From Caloramator sp. (GTDB taxonomy: Bacteria > Bacillota > Clostridia > Clostridiales > Caloramatoraceae): a stretch of 50,405 bases of DNA. Shown piece after piece: positions 18,705-42,272 of the stretch. Numbering within the stretch: the first letter of the stretch is position 1; the number at the start of each line of letters is the position of its first letter. The stretch spans positions 1 through 50,405 of the forward strand of contig JAOAAJ010000016.1 in NCBI GenBank assembly GCA_026418935.1, given 5' to 3'. A program made the position numbers and the translations under genes. The notes under the pieces are model-generated. The model made no database searches and was not told the origin of the DNA. It saw only the letters and a list, made by a program, of their open reading frames with translations.

Positions 18705-18763
18705 AAATTGTAAACTACTGTAAAAATATTTTGACATTATTATTTACACTATGTTTACAATTT
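18705..18763. repeat. Imperfect 20-base inverted repeat
   Basis: Arms 18705-18724 and 18743-18763 match as inverted copies apart from one indel and one mismatch; the outer 11 bases (AAATTGTAAAC / GTTTACAATTT) are perfect. It lies upstream of the ThrE-type operon, in the gap before the GH31 terminator. It could be an operator or an RNA hairpin; nothing else explains it. Confidence 0.6.
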
Positions 18764-18872
18764 ATCAACAACATCTTAATATTGAATGTGTATTATTAGA
18801 TACGTAAAGTGAAGCTCAAATTTTCCCCCCATAATAGTTCCCCCTTTAATATAGAATTATAAATATGGTATA

Positions 18873-32178: not shown

Positions 32179-32205
32179 AAGATAAGGGCTTTTGCCCTTA
32201 TCTTT
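32178..32205. terminator. Shared terminator between asnA and the LtaS-like gene
   Basis: A perfect 12-base stem (32178-32189 with 32194-32205) with a TTTT loop. It begins at the last base of asnA and contains the opposite gene's stop codon (32198-32200). Confidence 0.88.
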
Positions 32206-34009
32206 CTTTAAAATAATTTGAACTTATAACCTTATCCGAAATTTCAATACCCTTTAGTGCATGCTGTTTTATATCTTCTGGAGCATTCCCAACAACCTTT
32301 CCATTGTCTAAAACAGCAAAGTTTAAATTAGTATTAAGTAAAACTCTACCCATTGAAGTATCTTGATATTCTCTACTGTCTATTCCAAGTAGATAACATA
32401 TTGTTGGTAGAAGGTCTACTTGTCCACCAATTGTATCTATTGTTTTTGGCTTCATACCTTTATGATACACTATTAGAGGTATCTCCTTGTTATTATTAAG
32501 CCACCAATCCTCTTTTTGGCTTAAATTTTCTATGCTATTTTGATAATACTTATGAACACCTTCGTGGTCTCCAGATATTACAATAACTGTATTTTCTAAT
32601 ATGCCTTGTTTATCAAGTTCATCTATAAACATTCCTAAACACTTATCAGTATAATGTATGCTTTGAAAATATCCGCCTAAATACGAATCGTTAAGCTCTT
32701 TATTTAAATTTAAACTTCTATATTTTTCATCAATATTAAAGGGCATATGGCTTGTCAATGTAACAATAAAGGTGTAAAAGGGCTGACTTTGAGCTCTAAT
32801 TAAAGGTACTATCTGTTTTAAATAGGATTCATCACTTAATCCTAAACCTATCTTTTCATCAACATTAAAGCTTGTTTCATCTGTACACTTTTCAAATCCT
32901 ATTGAATATAATGCCCTCATCCAATTCCAATAGGGGCCTTTATCTGAATGTATTGCGTGGGTATAATAACCATATTTTTTTAGTATTTTGGGTAGAGAAT
33001 TATAAGTATTATCTGGATATCTAAAAAAAGTACTTCCTCTTCTAACTGGAAATATTGAAGTATTTACTATAAGGTCTCCATCTGAACTTATACCATTGTG
33101 AGTTTGTTCGTGATAATTATTAAAGTAGATACTATTTTTCAAAAGTCTATTTAAATTAGGAGTTATCTCTTTTCCATTTATGCTTTTATTTATAACAAAA
33201 TTCTCTAAAGATTCAACTTGTATATAAATTAAATTTTTATCTTTAAATAGACCCTTATATTCATTGTCCCTTTCTATCTTTTCTTTTTTATTAAACCATT
33301 CCTTTATATCAATCTTTTCTTGTTCAGAAAGTTCAATATGCCTACATTCTTTTATATAATTTATAATATCAAAAACGTGATATCCAATTGGCGACAAATT
33401 GGATATGGTGACCTTTGGTGAATATGTCATTTGATATATTGCTTGCTTTTTTGTATTAAATAAAATCTTTGCATCAACTGGTTCTATTATAAAAATAATT
33501 GAAAATAATAATGAAACTGTAAATGCTCTAACTTGTACACTTTTTTTGGATACATTTACCTTGTGTTTTTTATAAAAATAGTACAATATTAAAATATCTA
33601 AAAACAATAATAAATCATAAAACTTTATTAAAGATTTTATACTGTCTGATAAGTTATATAAATTTCCAGTCTGCATCATTGAATGTACTGATAAAAAACT
33701 CCCAAAACCTCTAAAATACCAAATATCTGTCAAAAATAACAGGGTTATTAAAAAGTTTATAAAAAACAAATAATAAACTTTAAACTTTCCTCTAAATAAA
33801 AAATAAAAGGACATCAAGATAATAATATATGAAAAATATAATAAATAGGATGGTATACAACCTATCGTATAAAAAAAGGCAAAACTCTTTGTATCAGTTA
33901 TTATATATGCTAAAATCGATATACTTTTAATAAATAATAAAAACACCGATAAAATAAATAGTTTATTGTTTAAATATATGCTTTTAAACCTTTCCTTTAA
34001 ATAATGCAT
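32198..34009 (-). CDS. LtaS-like membrane sulfatase/phosphoglycerol transferase
   Basis: 603 residues. Five membrane helices (about 17-36, 46-72, 80-97, 133-146 and 164-178) are followed by an extracellular alkaline-phosphatase-fold domain, the plan of lipoteichoic acid synthase. Metal and active-site motifs are IQVESLENF (E266), QTHNGISSDGD, TLTSHMPFN and SGDHEG. At the position where S. aureus LtaS has its nucleophilic Thr (GKTSD) this protein has Ser308 (GISSD). It likely polymerises or transfers a glycerol-phosphate-type group on the cell surface, but the product is uncertain. The start is ATG 34009 with GGAGG upstream. It lies 11 bases after the 57-aa membrane protein gene, at the end of the helicase operon. 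Confidence 0.9.
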   Translation of the reverse strand: MHYLKERFKSIYLNNKLFILSVFLLFIKSISILAYIITDTKSFAFFYTIGCIPSYLLYFSYIIILMSFYFLFRGKFKVYYLFFINFLITLLFLTDIWYFRGFGSFLSVHSMMQTGNLYNLSDSIKSLIKFYDLLLFLDILILYYFYKKHKVNVSKKSVQVRAFTVSLLFSIIFIIEPVDAKILFNTKKQAIYQMTYSPKVTISNLSPIGYHVFDIINYIKECRHIELSEQEKIDIKEWFNKKEKIERDNEYKGLFKDKNLIYIQVESLENFVINKSINGKEITPNLNRLLKNSIYFNNYHEQTHNGISSDGDLIVNTSIFPVRRGSTFFRYPDNTYNSLPKILKKYGYYTHAIHSDKGPYWNWMRALYSIGFEKCTDETSFNVDEKIGLGLSDESYLKQIVPLIRAQSQPFYTFIVTLTSHMPFNIDEKYRSLNLNKELNDSYLGGYFQSIHYTDKCLGMFIDELDKQGILENTVIVISGDHEGVHKYYQNSIENLSQKEDWWLNNNKEIPLIVYHKGMKPKTIDTIGGQVDLLPTICYLLGIDSREYQDTSMGRVLLNTNLNFAVLDNGKVVGNAPEDIKQHALKGIEISDKVISSNYFKER

Positions 34010-34020
34010 CAAATTCCTCC

Positions 34021-34194
34021 CTATTTAATCCAAAACTTTAAAAGAATAAAGAATACAACCCCCATTATAGCTGCAAATGCCAGTGCAATGGGTAGTAGCA
34101 CTTCAATTGCTGCAATTATCATTGCAAGTACATCCTTAAAATCAAGCCTAACTGGTTCATCATTTAAATCGTTATTATTTTTAAATTCTGCCAT
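34021..34194 (-). CDS. Small membrane protein, 57 aa
   Basis: 57 residues starting MAEFKNNNDLNDEPVRLDFK, a polar acidic N-terminus. One long hydrophobic segment follows (about 22-52, containing IEVLLPIALAFAAIMGVVFF), with KFWIK at the end, consistent with a single-span protein. ATG 34194 has AAGGGGG seven bases upstream. Gaps are 12 bases to the UvrD-like gene and 11 to the LtaS-like gene, so it belongs to that operon. The family is unknown; it might be a partner of the LtaS-like enzyme. Confidence 0.8.
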   Translation of the reverse strand: MAEFKNNNDLNDEPVRLDFKDVLAMIIAAIEVLLPIALAFAAIMGVVFFILLKFWIK

Positions 34195-34206: not shown

Positions 34207-35766
34207 TTAAATAAATTCTCCTTGACAAAACAGTTTAAAAAATTCCTTCTCACCATAGGAATCAAACTTAACTTTTAATACATTATCATCCTCGTATATT
34301 ACTATTCCTTCTCCATATTTTTTGTGAGTAACCTTCTTCTCTGCGTTTTTCTTTTCTTTTTCTAATCTTAACATATCATAAATTTCATTTAAAGTATATT
34401 TTGAATTACTATCCTGTTCCAATAGAAGGTTTTTAGGAAGCATTGATATATACTGGCTTTTGTAGCCCTTAAATCCAAAATAAGATGGGCTTTTTATATA
34501 CGAAATCTCAAGAACCTCCTTTGCCCTTGTAACACCAACAAAGAAGAGCCTAAGCTCCTCTTCTTCAATCTCTCTTTTTGTTGATATTGGTATATTCCCT
34601 TCATTAACTCCTACTATAAAAACATACCTAAACTCTAATCCCTTTGAGGAATGAAGTGTAAGGAGCTTTACAGATTCTCTATCTATCCTATCCTGCTGTT
34701 CTTCTACTCCCTTTATAAATTCACACTCAACCTCTCGACCTAATACATCATATAGAAGCTCCCCCTGAACCTGTCTTCTAAATAACACAGCAATGTCTTT
34801 TAAGCATACTCCCTTTTCTTTTAACTCCTTTATTCTTCTTAAAATATAATTTGCTTCATTAAAGGCATCATAATGGCTTGTTATCCTAATTGGCTCCCCA
34901 TATTCCCTTTTGCAGTATATCTTCTCTCCAATTAAAGCTGCTGCTGCCTCTGTTATTGTTCTTGTTGACCTATAGTTTATAGGAAGCTCAAATATAGTTG
35001 TATTATATTTATCTATAAAATCCTTAAAAATATTTTGTGTACCTGTTCTAAAGGAGTATATTGTTTGATTTGGATCTCCTACAACAAATATACCTGCTCT
35101 TTTTCCTGCAATCTTTTCTATAAGCTTTAGCTGCATATAGTCTGTATCCTGAAACTCGTCTATTATTATGTATTCAATTCCTAAATCTTCATCTAAAAAG
35201 TCATAGCAGTTTACTATTAAATCCTCGTAGTCCATTAAATTTTTTTCTTTTTTAACCCTTCTATATTCTTCATAAAGTATTTTGATGTCATCTTCCTTTT
35301 TCATATTAGCATATAGTAGATTTCCATTTTTAAATTCCTCTATCCTCTTTTGTATCTTAGATTTGTATTTTATATTAAGCCTTCCCTCTTTAACTATGTC
35401 ATTTATTATCTCTGAAGCCTCTTCATAGGATATTATTTTAAATTCTTTAGTATATCCAAACCTATTTAAATCTATATTTTCTCTTAATATCCTATTGGCA
35501 ATGCTGTGGAAAGTTCCAATATATTTTACATCTTCATCAATATTATTTTTTAGTCTCTCCTTTAGTTCCTCTGCTGCTTTATTTGTGAAGGTAACGACCA
35601 TAATTTTATTTAGAGGAACTTTTTTTATAAGGTGAAGATACAATACCCTATAGACTATAACTGTTGTTTTACCACTTCCAACACTTGCCCTTAAGGCTAC
35701 ATACTTCTCATTTGTTTCAACTGCCCTTCTTTGAAAGCTATTTAATTTATCAAATAAACCCTGCAA
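34207..35766 (-). CDS. Compact UvrD/PcrA-type superfamily 1 helicase
   Basis: 519 residues, about 200 shorter than PcrA, yet all core motifs are present: Q motif LNSFQRRAV, Walker A ASVGSGKTT, Ia VVTFTNKAAEEL, II IIDEFQDTDYMQ, III VGDPNQTIYSFR, IV LPINYRST, V LLTLHSSKGLEF and VI FFVGVTRAKEVL. The shortening is in the accessory 1B/2B region. The C-terminus (VTHKKYGEGIVIYEDDNVLKVKFD) is a PcrA-like tudor-type module. It starts at TTG 35766 with GGTGAG just upstream, eight bases after the MrfA-like stop. It probably unwinds DNA 3' to 5' in repair together with its neighbour (inference). Confidence 0.9.
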   Translation of the reverse strand: MQGLFDKLNSFQRRAVETNEKYVALRASVGSGKTTVIVYRVLYLHLIKKVPLNKIMVVTFTNKAAEELKERLKNNIDEDVKYIGTFHSIANRILRENIDLNRFGYTKEFKIISYEEASEIINDIVKEGRLNIKYKSKIQKRIEEFKNGNLLYANMKKEDDIKILYEEYRRVKKEKNLMDYEDLIVNCYDFLDEDLGIEYIIIDEFQDTDYMQLKLIEKIAGKRAGIFVVGDPNQTIYSFRTGTQNIFKDFIDKYNTTIFELPINYRSTRTITEAAAALIGEKIYCKREYGEPIRITSHYDAFNEANYILRRIKELKEKGVCLKDIAVLFRRQVQGELLYDVLGREVECEFIKGVEEQQDRIDRESVKLLTLHSSKGLEFRYVFIVGVNEGNIPISTKREIEEEELRLFFVGVTRAKEVLEISYIKSPSYFGFKGYKSQYISMLPKNLLLEQDSNSKYTLNEIYDMLRLEKEKKNAEKKVTHKKYGEGIVIYEDDNVLKVKFDSYGEKEFFKLFCQGEFI

Positions 35767-35774
35767 ATTCTCAC

Positions 35775-38402
35775 CTACCTCATCAAATCATCATATCTTC
35801 TTATAATTTTATCTATTTTGCTTTCTGATTTTATTACATTTACATCTATAGAGAAGTTATCCTTAACCTCAACATATCTTTTTATTATATTTTCAATCTT
35901 TGCTTTATTTAAAGTATCCATAATCCATTCTTTAAAGAAGGCAGATGTAACATTTAAAACCAATAAATTTCCCTTAACTTCAACTTCATCCACTATATTA
36001 AAGAATCCTAAAAAGGCTTCACTTCTTAATTTTAAGAAATTTCTAAAATCATTCCATTTAAATTGAAGCTCTTCTAATTTAAAATATTTATTTTCTTCTA
36101 CAACAACCTCTTCTACTCTCTTTGTTATCTTTGGACTCTCCTTAGTCTCTTTCATCATACCCTCTAAAGCCCAAAGAACCATCTTTTTATCTAAGTGGTA
36201 GTCCCCTACACAGGCAGGACATCCATCCTTACATTTACAATTTTTAACCATATTAACGGCATCAACTAAAACATCCTTTGCATAGTCAAAGGCCTTCTCT
36301 GTAAAACCTAATCCACCTGGATATAAATCATATAAAATAACATAGGCCCTTTTTATTTCTCCATCCTTTTCAACTGTGTTGAACATAGTTGCCCCAATAT
36401 CCTCAGATGTTGCCATTGTCCTTATTCTTGCTGCAGTAAGAAGTGCGTGCTTTATTCCATTATAATAATTAAATTCTGTATATAGATTTAAAACATCATC
36501 AACATCCTCAGGGATTAAATACCAAAGCCCTTCAGTTTCAAGGGTTGTAAAAAGGTTATCCTTTATTGACTCAAAACCTAAGTTTTGCCTATTATGGAAC
36601 TGTATCATCTTATATGCCACAACTGCCTCCTTGATTAATACATCTCCGAAGGTTGCAGTAGTTCTTGCAAATTCAACATTTTTAAATTCATTTATTATAT
36701 TTACCATTGTATCTGTAAATGGTACAGTAAAATAATTAACTTCTATTGGAAAAACTGTCGCTATTCTATTTACTAAATCAAGCTTTTCCACCATATACTG
36801 CACTCCATCATGCATATAGATTGCCTTTTCATATACTTCGTGGAAGGCCTGATACTCATCCATCTCTGTCAACATCTCTCCATTTACTTTATTTATAACC
36901 TTATAAATATCCCTTGAAATGTTTCTTAAACTAAAATCTCCTGCAGGATGTTCTTTTCCTATCCAAGTAAATATTCCACCGTCATTTTTAAGCTCTCCTG
37001 CCTTTAAAAGAACAGGTATTATCTCTGCAATATCTGGAAATAGTTCTGCATCATCAAGTGCAAGTGGAAGTTCTGCTGCAGCTGCCCTTACATGGGCAAG
37101 CTGAATAAAAAGGTTATTCTTATCTAAAACTGCATTTTCTACACCTGTCTTTAATAAAAACTCGCTATTTACTGCAATATATTGGTCAATTGGTCCCACA
37201 TCAAGTATTAGTATTCCCACAGCTTCTTTACGCCTTCCAGCACGTCCTACCTGCTGCCAAAAGGATGCCTTAGTACCTGGAAATCCTGAACAAATAACAA
37301 TGTCAATATCACCTATATCTATTCCAAGCTCCAGTGCATTTGTTGCAATAACTCCATTTATATCTCCCTTGACAAGCCTTTTTTCTATATCCTTTCTTTC
37401 TTCCTTTTTATATCCTCCTCTATAGCCTGCTATCTTATCAGTTAAATCAAGTAGACTTGGAACATCTTCTACATTTGCTAACTTATCACGCGTCTCCTTT
37501 AATACAACCTCAACTTCACGCCTGCTCTTACAAAACGTGATAAACCTTCTTCCATTTTGAATCATATCTGGTATAATCTCTGCTGCCTCTTCTTCTGGCG
37601 TCTTACGATATTCTGAATCTCTGACATATGGAGGCTGCCAAATATAAATATGCTTTTTATGAGATGGTGACCCATCCTTCTTAACATGATAGAATTCTTT
37701 ACCTGTTAATGTTTCTGCAAGTTCCTTTGGATTTGCTATAGTTGCTGAACTAAAAAGATATTGAGGGTTTGATCTGTAGTATTTGCAAATTCTTTTTAAC
37801 CTTCTTATTATATTTGCCATATGCGAACCAAAGGCTCCTCTATAAACGTGAAGCTCATCAACAACAAAGAACTTCAACTTAGAAAAAACATGATTAAACC
37901 CAAATAAACTGTGGTTTGGTAAAAAAGCTGAATTTAGCATCTCAGGGTTTGTAAGAATTATGTTTGCTGTTTTTCTTATCCTTGTTCTTTCGTTAGGGGG
38001 TGTATCCCCATCATATATTCCTGCTGATATTCTATCTTCTCCAAAATACTCAATAAATGGTAGTATATTTCTAAATTGATCATTTGCAAGAGCCTTTGTA
38101 GGATATACAAATATAGCTCTTGTTTTATTGTCTTTAAGTATTTCATCTATTACTGGAAGTAAAAAGCTTAGAGTTTTGCCACTTGCAGTTTGAGTTGTTA
38201 TAATAACATTTTCACCCTGCTTTGAGTGTTCAAACATCTCCTTCTGATGTGAATAAAGTTTAGTAAACCCTCTTTTTATTAAAAATTCCTTTAATTCATC
38301 AGATAACTCCTTTGGAAAATCAACATAGCTTGCAGGTCTTTCATCTATACTAATTTGAGAAATAATTCTATTATTAAATAACTCTAACTCCTTTAGATAC
38401 AA
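35775..38402 (-). CDS. mrfA: MrfA/YprA-like DEAH-type helicase with DUF1998 zinc domain
   Basis: Superfamily 2 helicase of 875 residues, related to B. subtilis MrfA (YprA), a mitomycin-lesion repair helicase. RecA domain 1 has TTQTASGKTLSFLLP and the DELH box (VVDELHVYRGAFGSH). Domain 2 has ATNALELGIDIGDID and QVGRAGRR. The C-terminal DUF1998-type zinc cluster is CKCKDGCPACVGDYH. B. subtilis has the exonuclease partner MrfB next door; here the next gene is a UvrD-like helicase instead. Start: GTG 38411 abuts GAGAGG, so TTG 38402, eight bases after it, is preferred. A promoter (TTGAAT-17-TAAAAT, 38421-38449) lies upstream. Confidence 0.9.
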   Translation of the reverse strand: MYLKELELFNNRIISQISIDERPASYVDFPKELSDELKEFLIKRGFTKLYSHQKEMFEHSKQGENVIITTQTASGKTLSFLLPVIDEILKDNKTRAIFVYPTKALANDQFRNILPFIEYFGEDRISAGIYDGDTPPNERTRIRKTANIILTNPEMLNSAFLPNHSLFGFNHVFSKLKFFVVDELHVYRGAFGSHMANIIRRLKRICKYYRSNPQYLFSSATIANPKELAETLTGKEFYHVKKDGSPSHKKHIYIWQPPYVRDSEYRKTPEEEAAEIIPDMIQNGRRFITFCKSRREVEVVLKETRDKLANVEDVPSLLDLTDKIAGYRGGYKKEERKDIEKRLVKGDINGVIATNALELGIDIGDIDIVICSGFPGTKASFWQQVGRAGRRKEAVGILILDVGPIDQYIAVNSEFLLKTGVENAVLDKNNLFIQLAHVRAAAAELPLALDDAELFPDIAEIIPVLLKAGELKNDGGIFTWIGKEHPAGDFSLRNISRDIYKVINKVNGEMLTEMDEYQAFHEVYEKAIYMHDGVQYMVEKLDLVNRIATVFPIEVNYFTVPFTDTMVNIINEFKNVEFARTTATFGDVLIKEAVVAYKMIQFHNRQNLGFESIKDNLFTTLETEGLWYLIPEDVDDVLNLYTEFNYYNGIKHALLTAARIRTMATSEDIGATMFNTVEKDGEIKRAYVILYDLYPGGLGFTEKAFDYAKDVLVDAVNMVKNCKCKDGCPACVGDYHLDKKMVLWALEGMMKETKESPKITKRVEEVVVEENKYFKLEELQFKWNDFRNFLKLRSEAFLGFFNIVDEVEVKGNLLVLNVTSAFFKEWIMDTLNKAKIENIIKRYVEVKDNFSIDVNVIKSESKIDKIIRRYDDLMR

Positions 38403-38449: not shown

Positions 38450-38471
38450 ATGTATAATTGATATAGATGGT

Positions 38472-38510
38472 TGTTAAGATTATGTTAATCCCATATTATG
38501 TATTGGTTAA
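38472..38510 (-). promoter_or_regulatory. Pho-box-like phased repeats facing the mrfA operon
   Basis: Read on the minus strand, TTAACC (38505-38510), a weak ATAATA (38494-38499), TTAACA (38483-38488) and TTAACA (38472-38477) recur every 11 bases. This is the mirror of the set at 38524-38551. It matches the PhoP/PhoB direct-repeat pattern; regulation of the mrfA-to-LtaS operon by phosphate is inference. Confidence 0.5.
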
Positions 38511-38523
38511 ATATTTTCTTTTA

Positions 38524-38551
38524 TTAACATAAACTTAACACAGATTTAACA
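38524..38551 (+). promoter_or_regulatory. Pho-box: three TTAACA repeats at 11-bp spacing
   Basis: TTAACA occurs exactly at 38524, 38535 and 38546, each separated by five bases, the pattern bound by PhoP of Firmicutes. A -10 box TATAAT follows at 38561-38566 without a good -35, as expected for an activated promoter. The downstream gene is a Na/phosphate cotransporter. Confidence 0.75.
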
Positions 38552-38560
38552 TTGAATAAG

Positions 38561-38566
38561 TATAAT
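38561..38566 (+). promoter_or_regulatory. -10 box of the Na/Pi cotransporter gene
   Basis: TATAAT nine bases after the last Pho-box repeat. Transcription would start near 38573, giving a leader of about 100 bases. Confidence 0.6.
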
Positions 38567-38618
38567 TTTAATCGTCTGTTGAAAAATATCTATTAACTAA
38601 TTTTATTGTCGAAAAAGG

Positions 38619-38646
38619 ACGCGTAAAAATTTACCTATTTACGCGT
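38619..38646 (+). other. Leader hairpin upstream of the Na/Pi cotransporter gene
   Basis: ACGCGTAAA (38619-38627) pairs with TTTACGCGT (38638-38646) over a ten-base loop in the predicted leader, 29 bases before the ATG. There is only a short T-run after it, so a full terminator is doubtful. It may stabilise the mRNA or attenuate transcription. Confidence 0.5.
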
Positions 38647-38675
38647 TTTAATAATGTAAAAGATGGGGGTATATT

Positions 38676-40286
38676 ATGAACGCAAAAATGGTTTTTGAAC
38701 TGTTAGGTGGCCTTGGTCTTTTCGTCTATGGTATGCATTTGATGGGAGGAGGACTCCAAAAGGCTGCAGGAGAAAAACTAAAAAGAATACTTGAAGTTTT
38801 AACTACTAACAGAGTTCTTGCAATAACTGTAGGTACAGTTGTTACTGCAATTATCCAAAGTTCTTCTGCAACAACTGTTATGACAGTTGGTTTTGTTAAC
38901 GCTGGACTTATGAATCTATATCAAGCAGCAGGCGTTATAATGGGAGCAAACATTGGTACTACTATGACTGCACAGCTTATAGCTTTTAAACTTACTGATA
39001 TTGCTCCATTAATTCTTGCAATTGGTGCTGCAATGCTTATGTTTTCAAGCAAAAAGAAAACTAAGGATATTGGAGAAATAGTATTTGGTTTTGGTGTTCT
39101 ATTTGTTGGTATGAAGATGATGGAACATTCAATGAAACCTCTTGCTCAAATGGATGGATTTAGAAACTTAATCATAACTTTAGGAACTCATCCAATACTT
39201 GGAGTATTAGTTGGACTTGGAATGACAGCAGTAGTTCAAAGTAGTAGTGCTACAATAGGTATTCTTCAAGCTCTTGCTGGAATAAATGCACTACCTCTTA
39301 ATGTTGCTCTACCAATATTATTTGGTGACAACATTGGTACCTGTGTTACAGCAATGCTTGCAAGTATTGGAGCAAATAAAAATGCAAGAAGAGCATCCCT
39401 TATACACCTTTCATTTAATGTAATTGGTACAGTTATATTTATGTCAATATTACCTATAGTAGTTAAGCTAATTCCTATCCTTGGTGGAGATATAAAGAGA
39501 CAAATAGCAAATGCTCATACAATATTCAACTTAACAAACGTAATAATTCAAGCTCCATTTATACCTCTACTTGTTAAGTGGGTTAAATGGTTAGTTCCTG
39601 GAGAAGAAAAAGAAGCAACAACAATGACTTTAGAGCACTTAGACTCAAGACTTCTTGAAACTCCTTCTATAGCAGTAGGTCAAGTTATTAAAGAAATTTC
39701 AAGAATGGGACAAATTGCTTCAGAAAATTTAACAAGATCAATGGAAGCCTTCTTTAATGAGGATACAAAGCTTATAAATAAAGTATTTGAAGTAGAACAA
39801 GTTGTAAACTTTCTTGAAAGAGAAATAACATCCTTTATGGTAGCATTATCAAATACTTCTCTTTCAGAACACGATTCAGAGATTATAACTTCTCTATTCC
39901 ATGTTGTAAATGACATCGAAAGAATAGGTGACCACGCTGATAACATAGCAGAACTTGCACAATACAGAATTGATAATAAGTTAGTGTTTTCAGATGATGC
40001 AATAAAAGAACTTCACGAAATATATAATGTAGCAAAATACGCAGTAGATTCATCAATTGATGCTCTTAAGAATTTTGATTTTGGTTTAGCACAAAAGGTT
40101 CTTGAGGCTGAAGGTAAAATAGATATGATGGAAAAACAACTTAGAAATGAGCATATAGATAGATTAAACAAGGGCGTATGCTCAACTTCAAGTGGAACAA
40201 TATTCTTAGATTTAATTAGTAATATAGAGAGAATTGGTGATCACTCAAATAACATTGCACAAATGGTTCTTGATTTTAAGGAGTGA
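38676..40286 (+). CDS. Na+/phosphate cotransporter with C-terminal PhoU domain (NptA/YjbB type)
   Basis: 536 residues. The N-terminal 1-310 are two inverted Na/Pi-II repeats with the signature QSSSATT (61-67) and QSSSATI (187-193) motifs that bind sodium and phosphate, plus GANIGTTMTA and GDNIGTCVTA. The C-terminal 330-536 is a PhoU-like helical domain with two repeats containing VNDIERIGDHADNIAE and NIERIGDHSNNIAQ. It imports or exports phosphate across the membrane, with the PhoU part likely regulating. GGGGG precedes the ATG. The upstream Pho-box suggests induction in low phosphate. It slightly precedes and may be coupled to the 71-aa CxxC gene. Confidence 0.95.
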   Translation: MNAKMVFELLGGLGLFVYGMHLMGGGLQKAAGEKLKRILEVLTTNRVLAITVGTVVTAIIQSSSATTVMTVGFVNAGLMNLYQAAGVIMGANIGTTMTAQLIAFKLTDIAPLILAIGAAMLMFSSKKKTKDIGEIVFGFGVLFVGMKMMEHSMKPLAQMDGFRNLIITLGTHPILGVLVGLGMTAVVQSSSATIGILQALAGINALPLNVALPILFGDNIGTCVTAMLASIGANKNARRASLIHLSFNVIGTVIFMSILPIVVKLIPILGGDIKRQIANAHTIFNLTNVIIQAPFIPLLVKWVKWLVPGEEKEATTMTLEHLDSRLLETPSIAVGQVIKEISRMGQIASENLTRSMEAFFNEDTKLINKVFEVEQVVNFLEREITSFMVALSNTSLSEHDSEIITSLFHVVNDIERIGDHADNIAELAQYRIDNKLVFSDDAIKELHEIYNVAKYAVDSSIDALKNFDFGLAQKVLEAEGKIDMMEKQLRNEHIDRLNKGVCSTSSGTIFLDLISNIERIGDHSNNIAQMVLDFKE

Positions 40287-40291
40287 AAAAT

Positions 40292-40507
40292 ATGAGAAGA
40301 TATGAAGAACCTTACTATGGAAAAAGGTATTTATATGATATAGAAAAAAAGACTTTGCACGATTTAGTAAATGAAAAGCCGGAATGTAATATTGACAACA
40401 TAGATAAAGAAGCTATAGATATGTATAGTTCACTAAATGAAGCTTCACTACTATTAGACCATCCCTTCTATTATCCTTGTCCACACTGTATGAAGAAGGA
40501 TGAATAA
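40292..40507 (+). CDS. Small CxxC protein of unknown function, 71 aa
   Basis: 71 residues starting MRRYEEPYYGKRYLYDIEKKTLHDL and ending with a PCPHCMKKDE tail, a CxxC pair that could hold a metal. No membrane segment; acidic overall. ATG 40292 has AAGGAG at the end of the transporter gene (the earlier GTG overlaps that stop and the site). It lies five bases after the transporter stop, so the two are co-transcribed, and a strong terminator follows. The family is not recognised. A role with the phosphate transporter is a guess from position. Confidence 0.8.
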   Translation: MRRYEEPYYGKRYLYDIEKKTLHDLVNEKPECNIDNIDKEAIDMYSSLNEASLLLDHPFYYPCPHCMKKDE

Positions 40508-40670: not shown

Positions 40671-42272
40671 ATGAAAACACAAATTTATAATTTATTAGGT
40701 GGCATAGGTTTACTTATTTTTTCACTTTCAATGCTTAGCCATTCATCACAAAATTATTTTAGCTCTTGGTTTCATAATAAATTTAGACATAAAAATACCA
40801 ATAGATTATATTCTCTGTTTGAAGGAATTATATTTTCATTTATAACTGAAAGTAGTACTATTTCAGCAACAACCTATTCAAGTATTCTTGAAGCAGGTTC
40901 TATTGATTTTGTTAATATTTTATATTTTATATCTGGTGTAAATATTGGTGCCTCATTAATTCCTATGATTATTCTTTTTAATTTCTCAATAATTCCTTAC
41001 CTTTTAGTGTTTATAGGTACATTTTTAATTATATTTGTTAATAAAAACACTAAGAAAAACATATATAATTTAGGTCAGGTTCTTTTAAGTATTGGACTTC
41101 TTTTAGTATCTTTAATATATATAAAATCAGGAACAATAGAAAATCAGCTAATTCACCTTATAAAAAATAATTATATCTCAAGCTTCTTTATAGGCATAAT
41201 AACTGCTCTTATTTTTAGAAGTAGCAATGCTGTAGTTATACTACTTATACCATTTGTACTAAACAACATAATAGGTTTTAATTCTGCTCTATTTACTGTA
41301 ATAGGTGCTAATATAGGTTCTTCACTTTACGTTTTAATTAAATCCTATAAACAGGAAAGACATATTATAATTACATCCTTCATACATTTGATAATTAATA
41401 TAATGGGTGCTTTTTCAATATATATTATTTATTTAATTCATCCGTTATTCTTTTATGCAACACCCTATATGTCCTTAAATATAATAATCTTGCATGTTTT
41501 AACTAATATACTTGGCTCATTAATATCAATATTACTTTCAAATTCAATAATAAAGGGACTTCTAAATAATATATATCCTCTTAAAACAAATAATACCACA
41601 AAAAGGTTCAAATATTTAAATCCTATTGTTACAAATACACCTTCTGTTGCAATTGAACAATGTATAAAAGAAATTAGTAGAATGGGAGAAATTGCTCTAA
41701 TTAATCTTGAAAAGTCCTTTGGTCTTATATTTGACTTTAGAAGAAATAGTATAAACCAAATACAAAAGGATGAGGATTTGCTTGATTATCTTGAGGATGC
41801 ATTAATGAATTTCTTAACTTCACTCTCAATGAAAAATCCAACTTATGGTGAATCTGAAGTAATTATGAGTCTCTATAATATGATTAATGACATGGAACGT
41901 GTTGGAGATCACGCTATAAATCTTTTAGACCTTGCTGAATATAAATTTAACCACTATATTAATTTTTCTGAAGAGGCATCTGTTGAGTTAAAGTACTTCT
42001 TTGAACTATGTCACACTTCATTTATTAAGTCTCTTGAGGCTTTAGAGGATAGAGACTTAGAGAAAATAAATGAAGTTATTGAACTTGAACAAAAGATTGA
42101 TGCAGTTGAAAAACAACTAAGAAAAGACCATATAGATAGGCTAAACAAATGTATATGTAATCCAAACAGTGGTATGATATTCCTTGATTGTTTAACAAAC
42201 CTTGAAAGAGTTGGAGACCATGCGTATAAAATAGCCCTAACTACAAGGGATATAATAAAGATATTACAGTAG
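40671..42272 (+). CDS. Degenerate Na/Pi cotransporter paralogue with intact PhoU domain
   Basis: 533 residues with the same two-part plan as the gene at 38676: membrane domain (1-310) and PhoU domain (325-533). The substrate motifs are lost. The first QSSSATT is replaced by ESSTISATT (60-68) and the second by RSSNAVV (183-189). GVNIGASLIP and GANIGSSLYV remain. The PhoU repeats are well kept (MINDMERVGDHAINLLD, LTNLERVGDHAYKIAL). The membrane part may therefore be a sensor or anchor rather than a transporter (inference). Own ATG behind GGGGGAA. It is separated from the first copy by a terminator and ends at a terminator shared with cwlD. A possible -10 TATAAT lies at 40632-40637. Confidence 0.9.
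   Translation: MKTQIYNLLGGIGLLIFSLSMLSHSSQNYFSSWFHNKFRHKNTNRLYSLFEGIIFSFITESSTISATTYSSILEAGSIDFVNILYFISGVNIGASLIPMIILFNFSIIPYLLVFIGTFLIIFVNKNTKKNIYNLGQVLLSIGLLLVSLIYIKSGTIENQLIHLIKNNYISSFFIGIITALIFRSSNAVVILLIPFVLNNIIGFNSALFTVIGANIGSSLYVLIKSYKQERHIIITSFIHLIINIMGAFSIYIIYLIHPLFFYATPYMSLNIIILHVLTNILGSLISILLSNSIIKGLLNNIYPLKTNNTTKRFKYLNPIVTNTPSVAIEQCIKEISRMGEIALINLEKSFGLIFDFRRNSINQIQKDEDLLDYLEDALMNFLTSLSMKNPTYGESEVIMSLYNMINDMERVGDHAINLLDLAEYKFNHYINFSEEASVELKYFFELCHTSFIKSLEALEDRDLEKINEVIELEQKIDAVEKQLRKDHIDRLNKCICNPNSGMIFLDCLTNLERVGDHAYKIALTTRDIIKILQ

Follow-up and report, generated by a model that had tools for sequence, protein, structure and literature searches.

In Bacillus subtilis, the consensus for the response regulator PhoP is TT(A/T/C)ACA-N4-6-TT(A/T/C)ACA (PMC12404567), and phosphorylated PhoP represses the tagA and tagD promoters (PMC13403408). 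Both nptA and pst are PhoPR-dependent in Staphylococcus aureus (PMC13170248). The consensus for WalR is TGTWAH-N5-TGTWAH (PMC9210968), and cross-talk between PhoR and WalR has been described in B. subtilis (PMC13403408). Here we analyze a short intergenic region within a stretch of 50,405 nucleotides from Caloramator sp. (contig JAOAAJ010000016.1, from here on the window), in which two opposed sets of TTAACA-like repeats separate a phosphate transporter gene from an operon headed by a helicase gene.

Genes around the repeats

The window belongs to the Caloramator/Thermobrachium genus of Clostridia; its transporter is 96% identical to that of Caloramator proteoclasticus and 91% to that of Thermobrachium celere, and Caloramator sp. 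mosi_1 is also among the best named relatives. The transporter gene, on the plus strand (38676-40286), encodes an NptA-type Na/Pi cotransporter with a C-terminal PhoU domain (PF02690 and PF01895, with TIGR00704 over its cut-off) and is referred to below as nptA. A small ORF with a CPHC motif (40294-40506) lies between nptA and a terminator-like hairpin and is apparently part of the nptA operon. Further downstream there is a second paralogue of the Na/Pi cotransporter-PhoU type (40671-42272), the QSSSAT transport motifs of which have degenerated. It is kept in the genus, is fast-evolving (60-89% identity) and is possibly a sensor rather than a transporter; no Pho boxes were found before it.

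On the minus strand, the gene order is mrfA, uvrD, a short ORF and an ltaS-like gene. The first of them (35775-38402) codes for an MrfA-like DEAD/DEAH helicase with an MZB domain. Its start is probably the TTG at 38402, as judged from the alignment with T. celere, which has an ATG at the matching codon and an in-frame TAG before it. The UvrD-like helicase gene (34207-35766) begins 8 bp after mrfA and is followed by an ORF of 57 aa (34021-34194) with a membrane segment predicted by eye and no Pfam match, which is also found after uvrD in T. celere. The last gene (32198-34009), 11 bp after this ORF, encodes an LtaS-like membrane phosphoglycerol transferase with a sulfatase fold, closest to LtaS-type structures. 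Elsewhere in the window, a ThrE-like exporter gene has 11-bp repeats of the TTTACA/TCAACA type upstream (18743-18781), which on its coding strand read TGTAAA-N5-TGTAAA, a WalR-like site.

Two opposed repeat arrays

The preliminary description of this DNA had reported TTAACA hexamers on both strands between the two operons, with TTAACC also on the minus strand, and all of them were confirmed in the sequence, far above chance. The plus-strand set (38524-38551) is a perfect triple of TTAACA at 38524, 38535 and 38546 with a period of 11 bp and is the predicted Pho box of the cotransporter gene. On the minus strand there are TTAACA at 38472 and 38483 and TTAACC at 38505. The 11-base register holds in both sets; the minus set, however, does not consist of three units as had been described. 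The slot at 38494-38499 is occupied by a degenerate unit (ATAATA) that had been missed, giving a four-unit array facing mrfA (38472-38510) that reads TTAACC-N5-ATAATA-N5-TTAACA-N5-TTAACA. The degenerate unit is not disqualifying, because ATAATA is also the middle unit in several pstS arrays of Clostridium relatives. Both arrays fit the B. subtilis PhoP consensus.

When the intergenic sequence was shuffled 10,000 times with its dinucleotides preserved, an 18/18 triple or a four-unit array with at least 21/24 matches never appeared on either strand. In genome-wide pattern searches, no exact triple other than the plus array turned up in the assembly (2.01 Mb). Loose triples (up to three mismatches) were barely enriched (147 versus 117 for the reversed control), so that only near-perfect arrays mean anything and a search with loose triples was useless as a regulon finder.

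The promoter of the transporter gene

A TATAAT hexamer (38561-38566, plus strand), the predicted -10 of the nptA promoter, lies 9 bp after the last repeat. At the 17-bp spacing where a -35 would be expected there is ACACAG, i.e., no -35, and with TTAACA 9 bp from TATAAT the promoter therefore looks activator-dependent. The three perfect copies, with N5 spacers, provide more than the two TT(A/T/C)ACA direct repeats with N4-6 expected of a Pho box, and they occupy the activator position just 5' of a -10 without a -35. This arrangement is conserved. We aligned five members of the genus (the window, C. proteoclasticus, mosi_1, T. celere and SKW282), a small and closely related sample, in all of which the three hexamers and TATAAT are invariant and the 9-bp gap varies (0.52).

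Plus-strand arrays were also found upstream of 20 of the 21 nptA orthologues tested (at least 62% identity), most of which have a different neighbour gene; these arrays scored above shuffles (200 per sequence; p at most 0.02, unadjusted). In a set of 47 sequences, the distances at which TAnnnT most commonly follows a box pair were 9 bp and 20 bp (9+11), with 13 cases each and 0-7 at any other distance. Used as a search pattern, a box followed by 9 bp and TAnnnT finds nptA in all five genus genomes, with other matches at control level, and misses pstS because of its longer internal gap.

Just before the nptA ribosome-binding site, the centroid structure of the leader contains a hairpin (38617-38650, plus strand) with a 9-bp stem, ACGCGTAAA. 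The stem sequence is kept in three of the five genus members, including C. proteoclasticus and mosi_1, and not in T. celere. The hairpin does not fold more stably than shuffled sequences (z -0.36), and as a known RNA it was discarded, no Rfam family having reached its gathering score.

The regulator and the pst genes

The genome has one clear PhoP orthologue, on contig C8, with 64-69% identity to response regulators near pst in four Clostridium genomes; its other response regulators are at most 50% identical to these. The C8 regulator falls below the cut-off of the PhoB model, and beside it there is a PnpS-type kinase over the cut-off of the PnpS model. The pst operon (pstS, pstC, pstA, pstB and phoU) is on contig C22, and the pstS box (L153:4152-4189) also has its -10 at 9 bp. 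The upstream region of pstS contains TTAAC(C/T)-N5-TTAACA, then TTAACA-9 bp-TATAAA, in this genome (as TTAACC-N5-TTAACA), T. celere, C. proteoclasticus and mosi_1, the last with TGTAAA in place of TATAAA.

Directly upstream of pstS there is an EAL-CBS-GGDEF gene (c-di-GMP phosphodiesterase type) preceded by five TTAACA-like repeats (L153:2247-2312, about 11746-11811 of contig C22 in G000), which T. celere and Caloramator sp. mosi_1 have retained. Through them, phosphate starvation could possibly be tied to c-di-GMP.

Taken together, the motif, the 9-bp geometry of the -10, the same motif before pstS, the PhoP orthologue and the conservation make PhoP control of the phosphate transporter, as proposed in the preliminary description, well supported by sequence comparison. 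The nptA-facing set can be regarded as a standard PhoP-activated promoter, ordinary and widespread, to which PhoP is predicted to bind.

The array facing mrfA

The four 11-bp slots of the minus-strand array are kept in all five genus members, e.g., as TTAACC/ATAATA/TTAACA/TTAACA in the window and TTAACA/TTAAAA/TTTACT/TTAACA in T. celere. Mean identity across the five species is 0.84 at the box columns versus 0.41 at the spacers, register 0 being the best of 11 (permutation p < 1/20,000). The two perfect adjacent copies, accompanied by TTAACC and ATAATA, supply the minimum of two TT(A/T/C)ACA repeats. Outside the genus no such array was found upstream of mrfA, including in Fervidicella and in genome G008, where mrfA is divergent from nptA. 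Because of this absence elsewhere, we take the array to have been gained in, or retained only by, the Caloramator/Thermobrachium genus. Conservation of the repeats in relatives, put forward earlier as a check, is thus found for the nptA set throughout the genus and in nearly all orthologues tested, and for the mrfA set within the genus only.

None of the five species has TAnnnT at 9 bp after the last minus repeat, and the array is therefore not in the activator position. The candidate -10 of mrfA, a weak TATACA (38451-38456, minus strand), lies 15 bp after this last repeat, a TTAACA that resembles a -35. The same TATACA is present in C. proteoclasticus and mosi_1, and at 16 bp there are TATATA in T. 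celere and TAAAAT in SKW282. Since there is no -10 at 9 bp, the sequence is compatible with activation as well as with repression of mrfA. The earlier proposal that phosphate starvation switches both directions is thus well supported for nptA; for mrfA, the conservation in the genus makes it plausible, with the lack of activator geometry, the absence of the array outside the genus and the chance that it is a WalR site counting against it.

The LtaS-like gene

The preliminary description had also tied a surface-polymer enzyme, the LtaS-like protein, to the Pho regulon. This link is weak, because T. celere, which has mrfA, uvrD and the small ORF and lacks ltaS there, keeps the array, and because most ltaS relatives have no boxes. 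The protein itself scores 345 bits against a cut-off of 970 for the NCBIfam LtaS equivalog, and in the alignment with 2w8d it has Ser where the LtaS GKTSD motif has Thr. The idea that the gene is itself a Pho target was rejected: there are no boxes in the uvrD-ltaS gap and none above chance before the closer homologues tested (about 45-51%). The surface-polymer connection appears to be no more than incidental, even though ltaS, in species that have it here, would share whatever regulation acts on the common transcript. Two relatives from within the order (L220 and L221) have TTAACAGAATATTAACA and TTAACAGAATGTTAAAA repeats about 100 bp upstream of ltaS paralogues that are about 35% identical, and control of these paralogues by PhoP or WalR is possible.

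A proposed bidirectional control region and its alternatives

We consider it likely that these 80 bp form a control region to which PhoP binds and which acts in both directions. The repeats, their conservation and geometry, the pstS counterpart and the PhoP orthologue are observed directly; binding, the response to phosphate and its direction are what they lead us to predict. Under low phosphate, phosphorylated PhoP would bind head-to-tail on the plus-strand TTAACA repeats and replace the missing -35 contact, and very probably it would activate the nptA-type cotransporter from the TATAAT located 9 bp downstream. That the four-unit array lets PhoP also modulate the mrfA-uvrD-(membrane ORF)-ltaS-like operon seems to us evenly balanced. 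This array overlaps the candidate -35, with a non-canonical gap of 15-16 bp to the -10, an arrangement that might produce repression or modest activation; PhoP could repress mrfA by covering the -35 or activate it in a non-standard way.

Other explanations concern mainly the mrfA-facing array. It might serve nptA by giving PhoP an extra nucleation site, so that the transporter is activated or repressed more strongly. The array and the nptA box are 13 bp apart and the mrfA side lacks the 9-bp geometry, both of which would suit such a role. We nevertheless regard it as unlikely, as no such array accompanies the good plus-strand boxes of nptA orthologues from outside the genus and the minus array points the other way. 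It is very unlikely that the array is a relic or a chance repeat and that the nptA box alone works: the AT content of 78%, the lack of a clear promoter phased to the array and its absence outside the genus are all compatible with this, but no shuffle out of 10,000 matched the array, and in the five species conservation is twice as high in its box columns as in its spacers.

A WalR-type regulator that binds both sets, or only the mrfA-facing one, is distinctly improbable as an explanation, yet it deserves attention because the WalR half-site TGTTAA becomes TTAACA when reverse-complemented and the N5 spacing is shared, so that TGTTAA-N5-TGTTAA is present on the complementary strand of both sets. 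WalR-type targets include cell-envelope genes, of which an ltaS relative would be an example, repeat arrays lie ahead of some ltaS paralogues (about 35% identity, L219-L221), the PhoR/WalR cross-talk of B. subtilis (PMC13403408) points the same way, and another OmpR-type regulator/kinase pair on contig C115, followed by an HtrA-like protease, is a candidate WalR. Against it, T. celere has retained the array in front of an operon that lacks ltaS, and motif and geometry recur before pstS and nptA, both phosphate genes. These two contexts favour PhoP on the plus set, and WalR is a live rival for the minus set.

With PhoP as the preferred regulator, the locus may be a case of a regulon that is just acquiring a target: the transporter box is old and common to the wider family, and the opposed array, restricted to a single genus, looks selected there. 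Tentatively, and with slightly less than even confidence, we suggest that in this genus phosphate starvation has been wired to the mrfA-uvrD operon through a PhoP array that is a new acquisition and stands back to back with the transporter box. Besides the helicases, this operon encodes a small membrane protein and, in many cases, an LtaS-like enzyme. If the array works, phosphate stress would control helicases of the MrfA/UvrD type, a link that we did not find in the literature searched. The 9-bp rule for the distance from Pho box to -10 is a simple tool to predict Pho promoters across Clostridia.

Comparison with known systems

The locus resembles the PhoP boxes of the B. subtilis pstS, tuaA and phoD promoters in its TT(A/T/C)ACA direct repeats with spacers of about 5 bp, located upstream of phosphate genes and reading toward the gene. 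It differs from them in having an NptA-type Na/Pi cotransporter as target, in the tight spacing of 9 bp between box and -10, and in a second array back to back with the first. With tagA/tagD of B. subtilis it shares PhoP control of surface-polymer genes, as predicted here, and the divergent arrangement. Unlike in that case, a phosphate transporter is located on one side and a helicase-first operon on the other, with the ltaS-like gene last and dispensable to the pattern. What it has in common with S. aureus is an NptA-PhoU fusion transporter that depends, here by prediction, on PhoPR, alongside pst (PMC13170248); we know of no mrfA-facing array in that species. Finally, WalR (YycF) boxes show the same hexamer at the same spacing when the other strand is read (PMC9210968); here, in contrast, the targets include phosphate importers and the -10 geometry fits the reading direction of PhoP.
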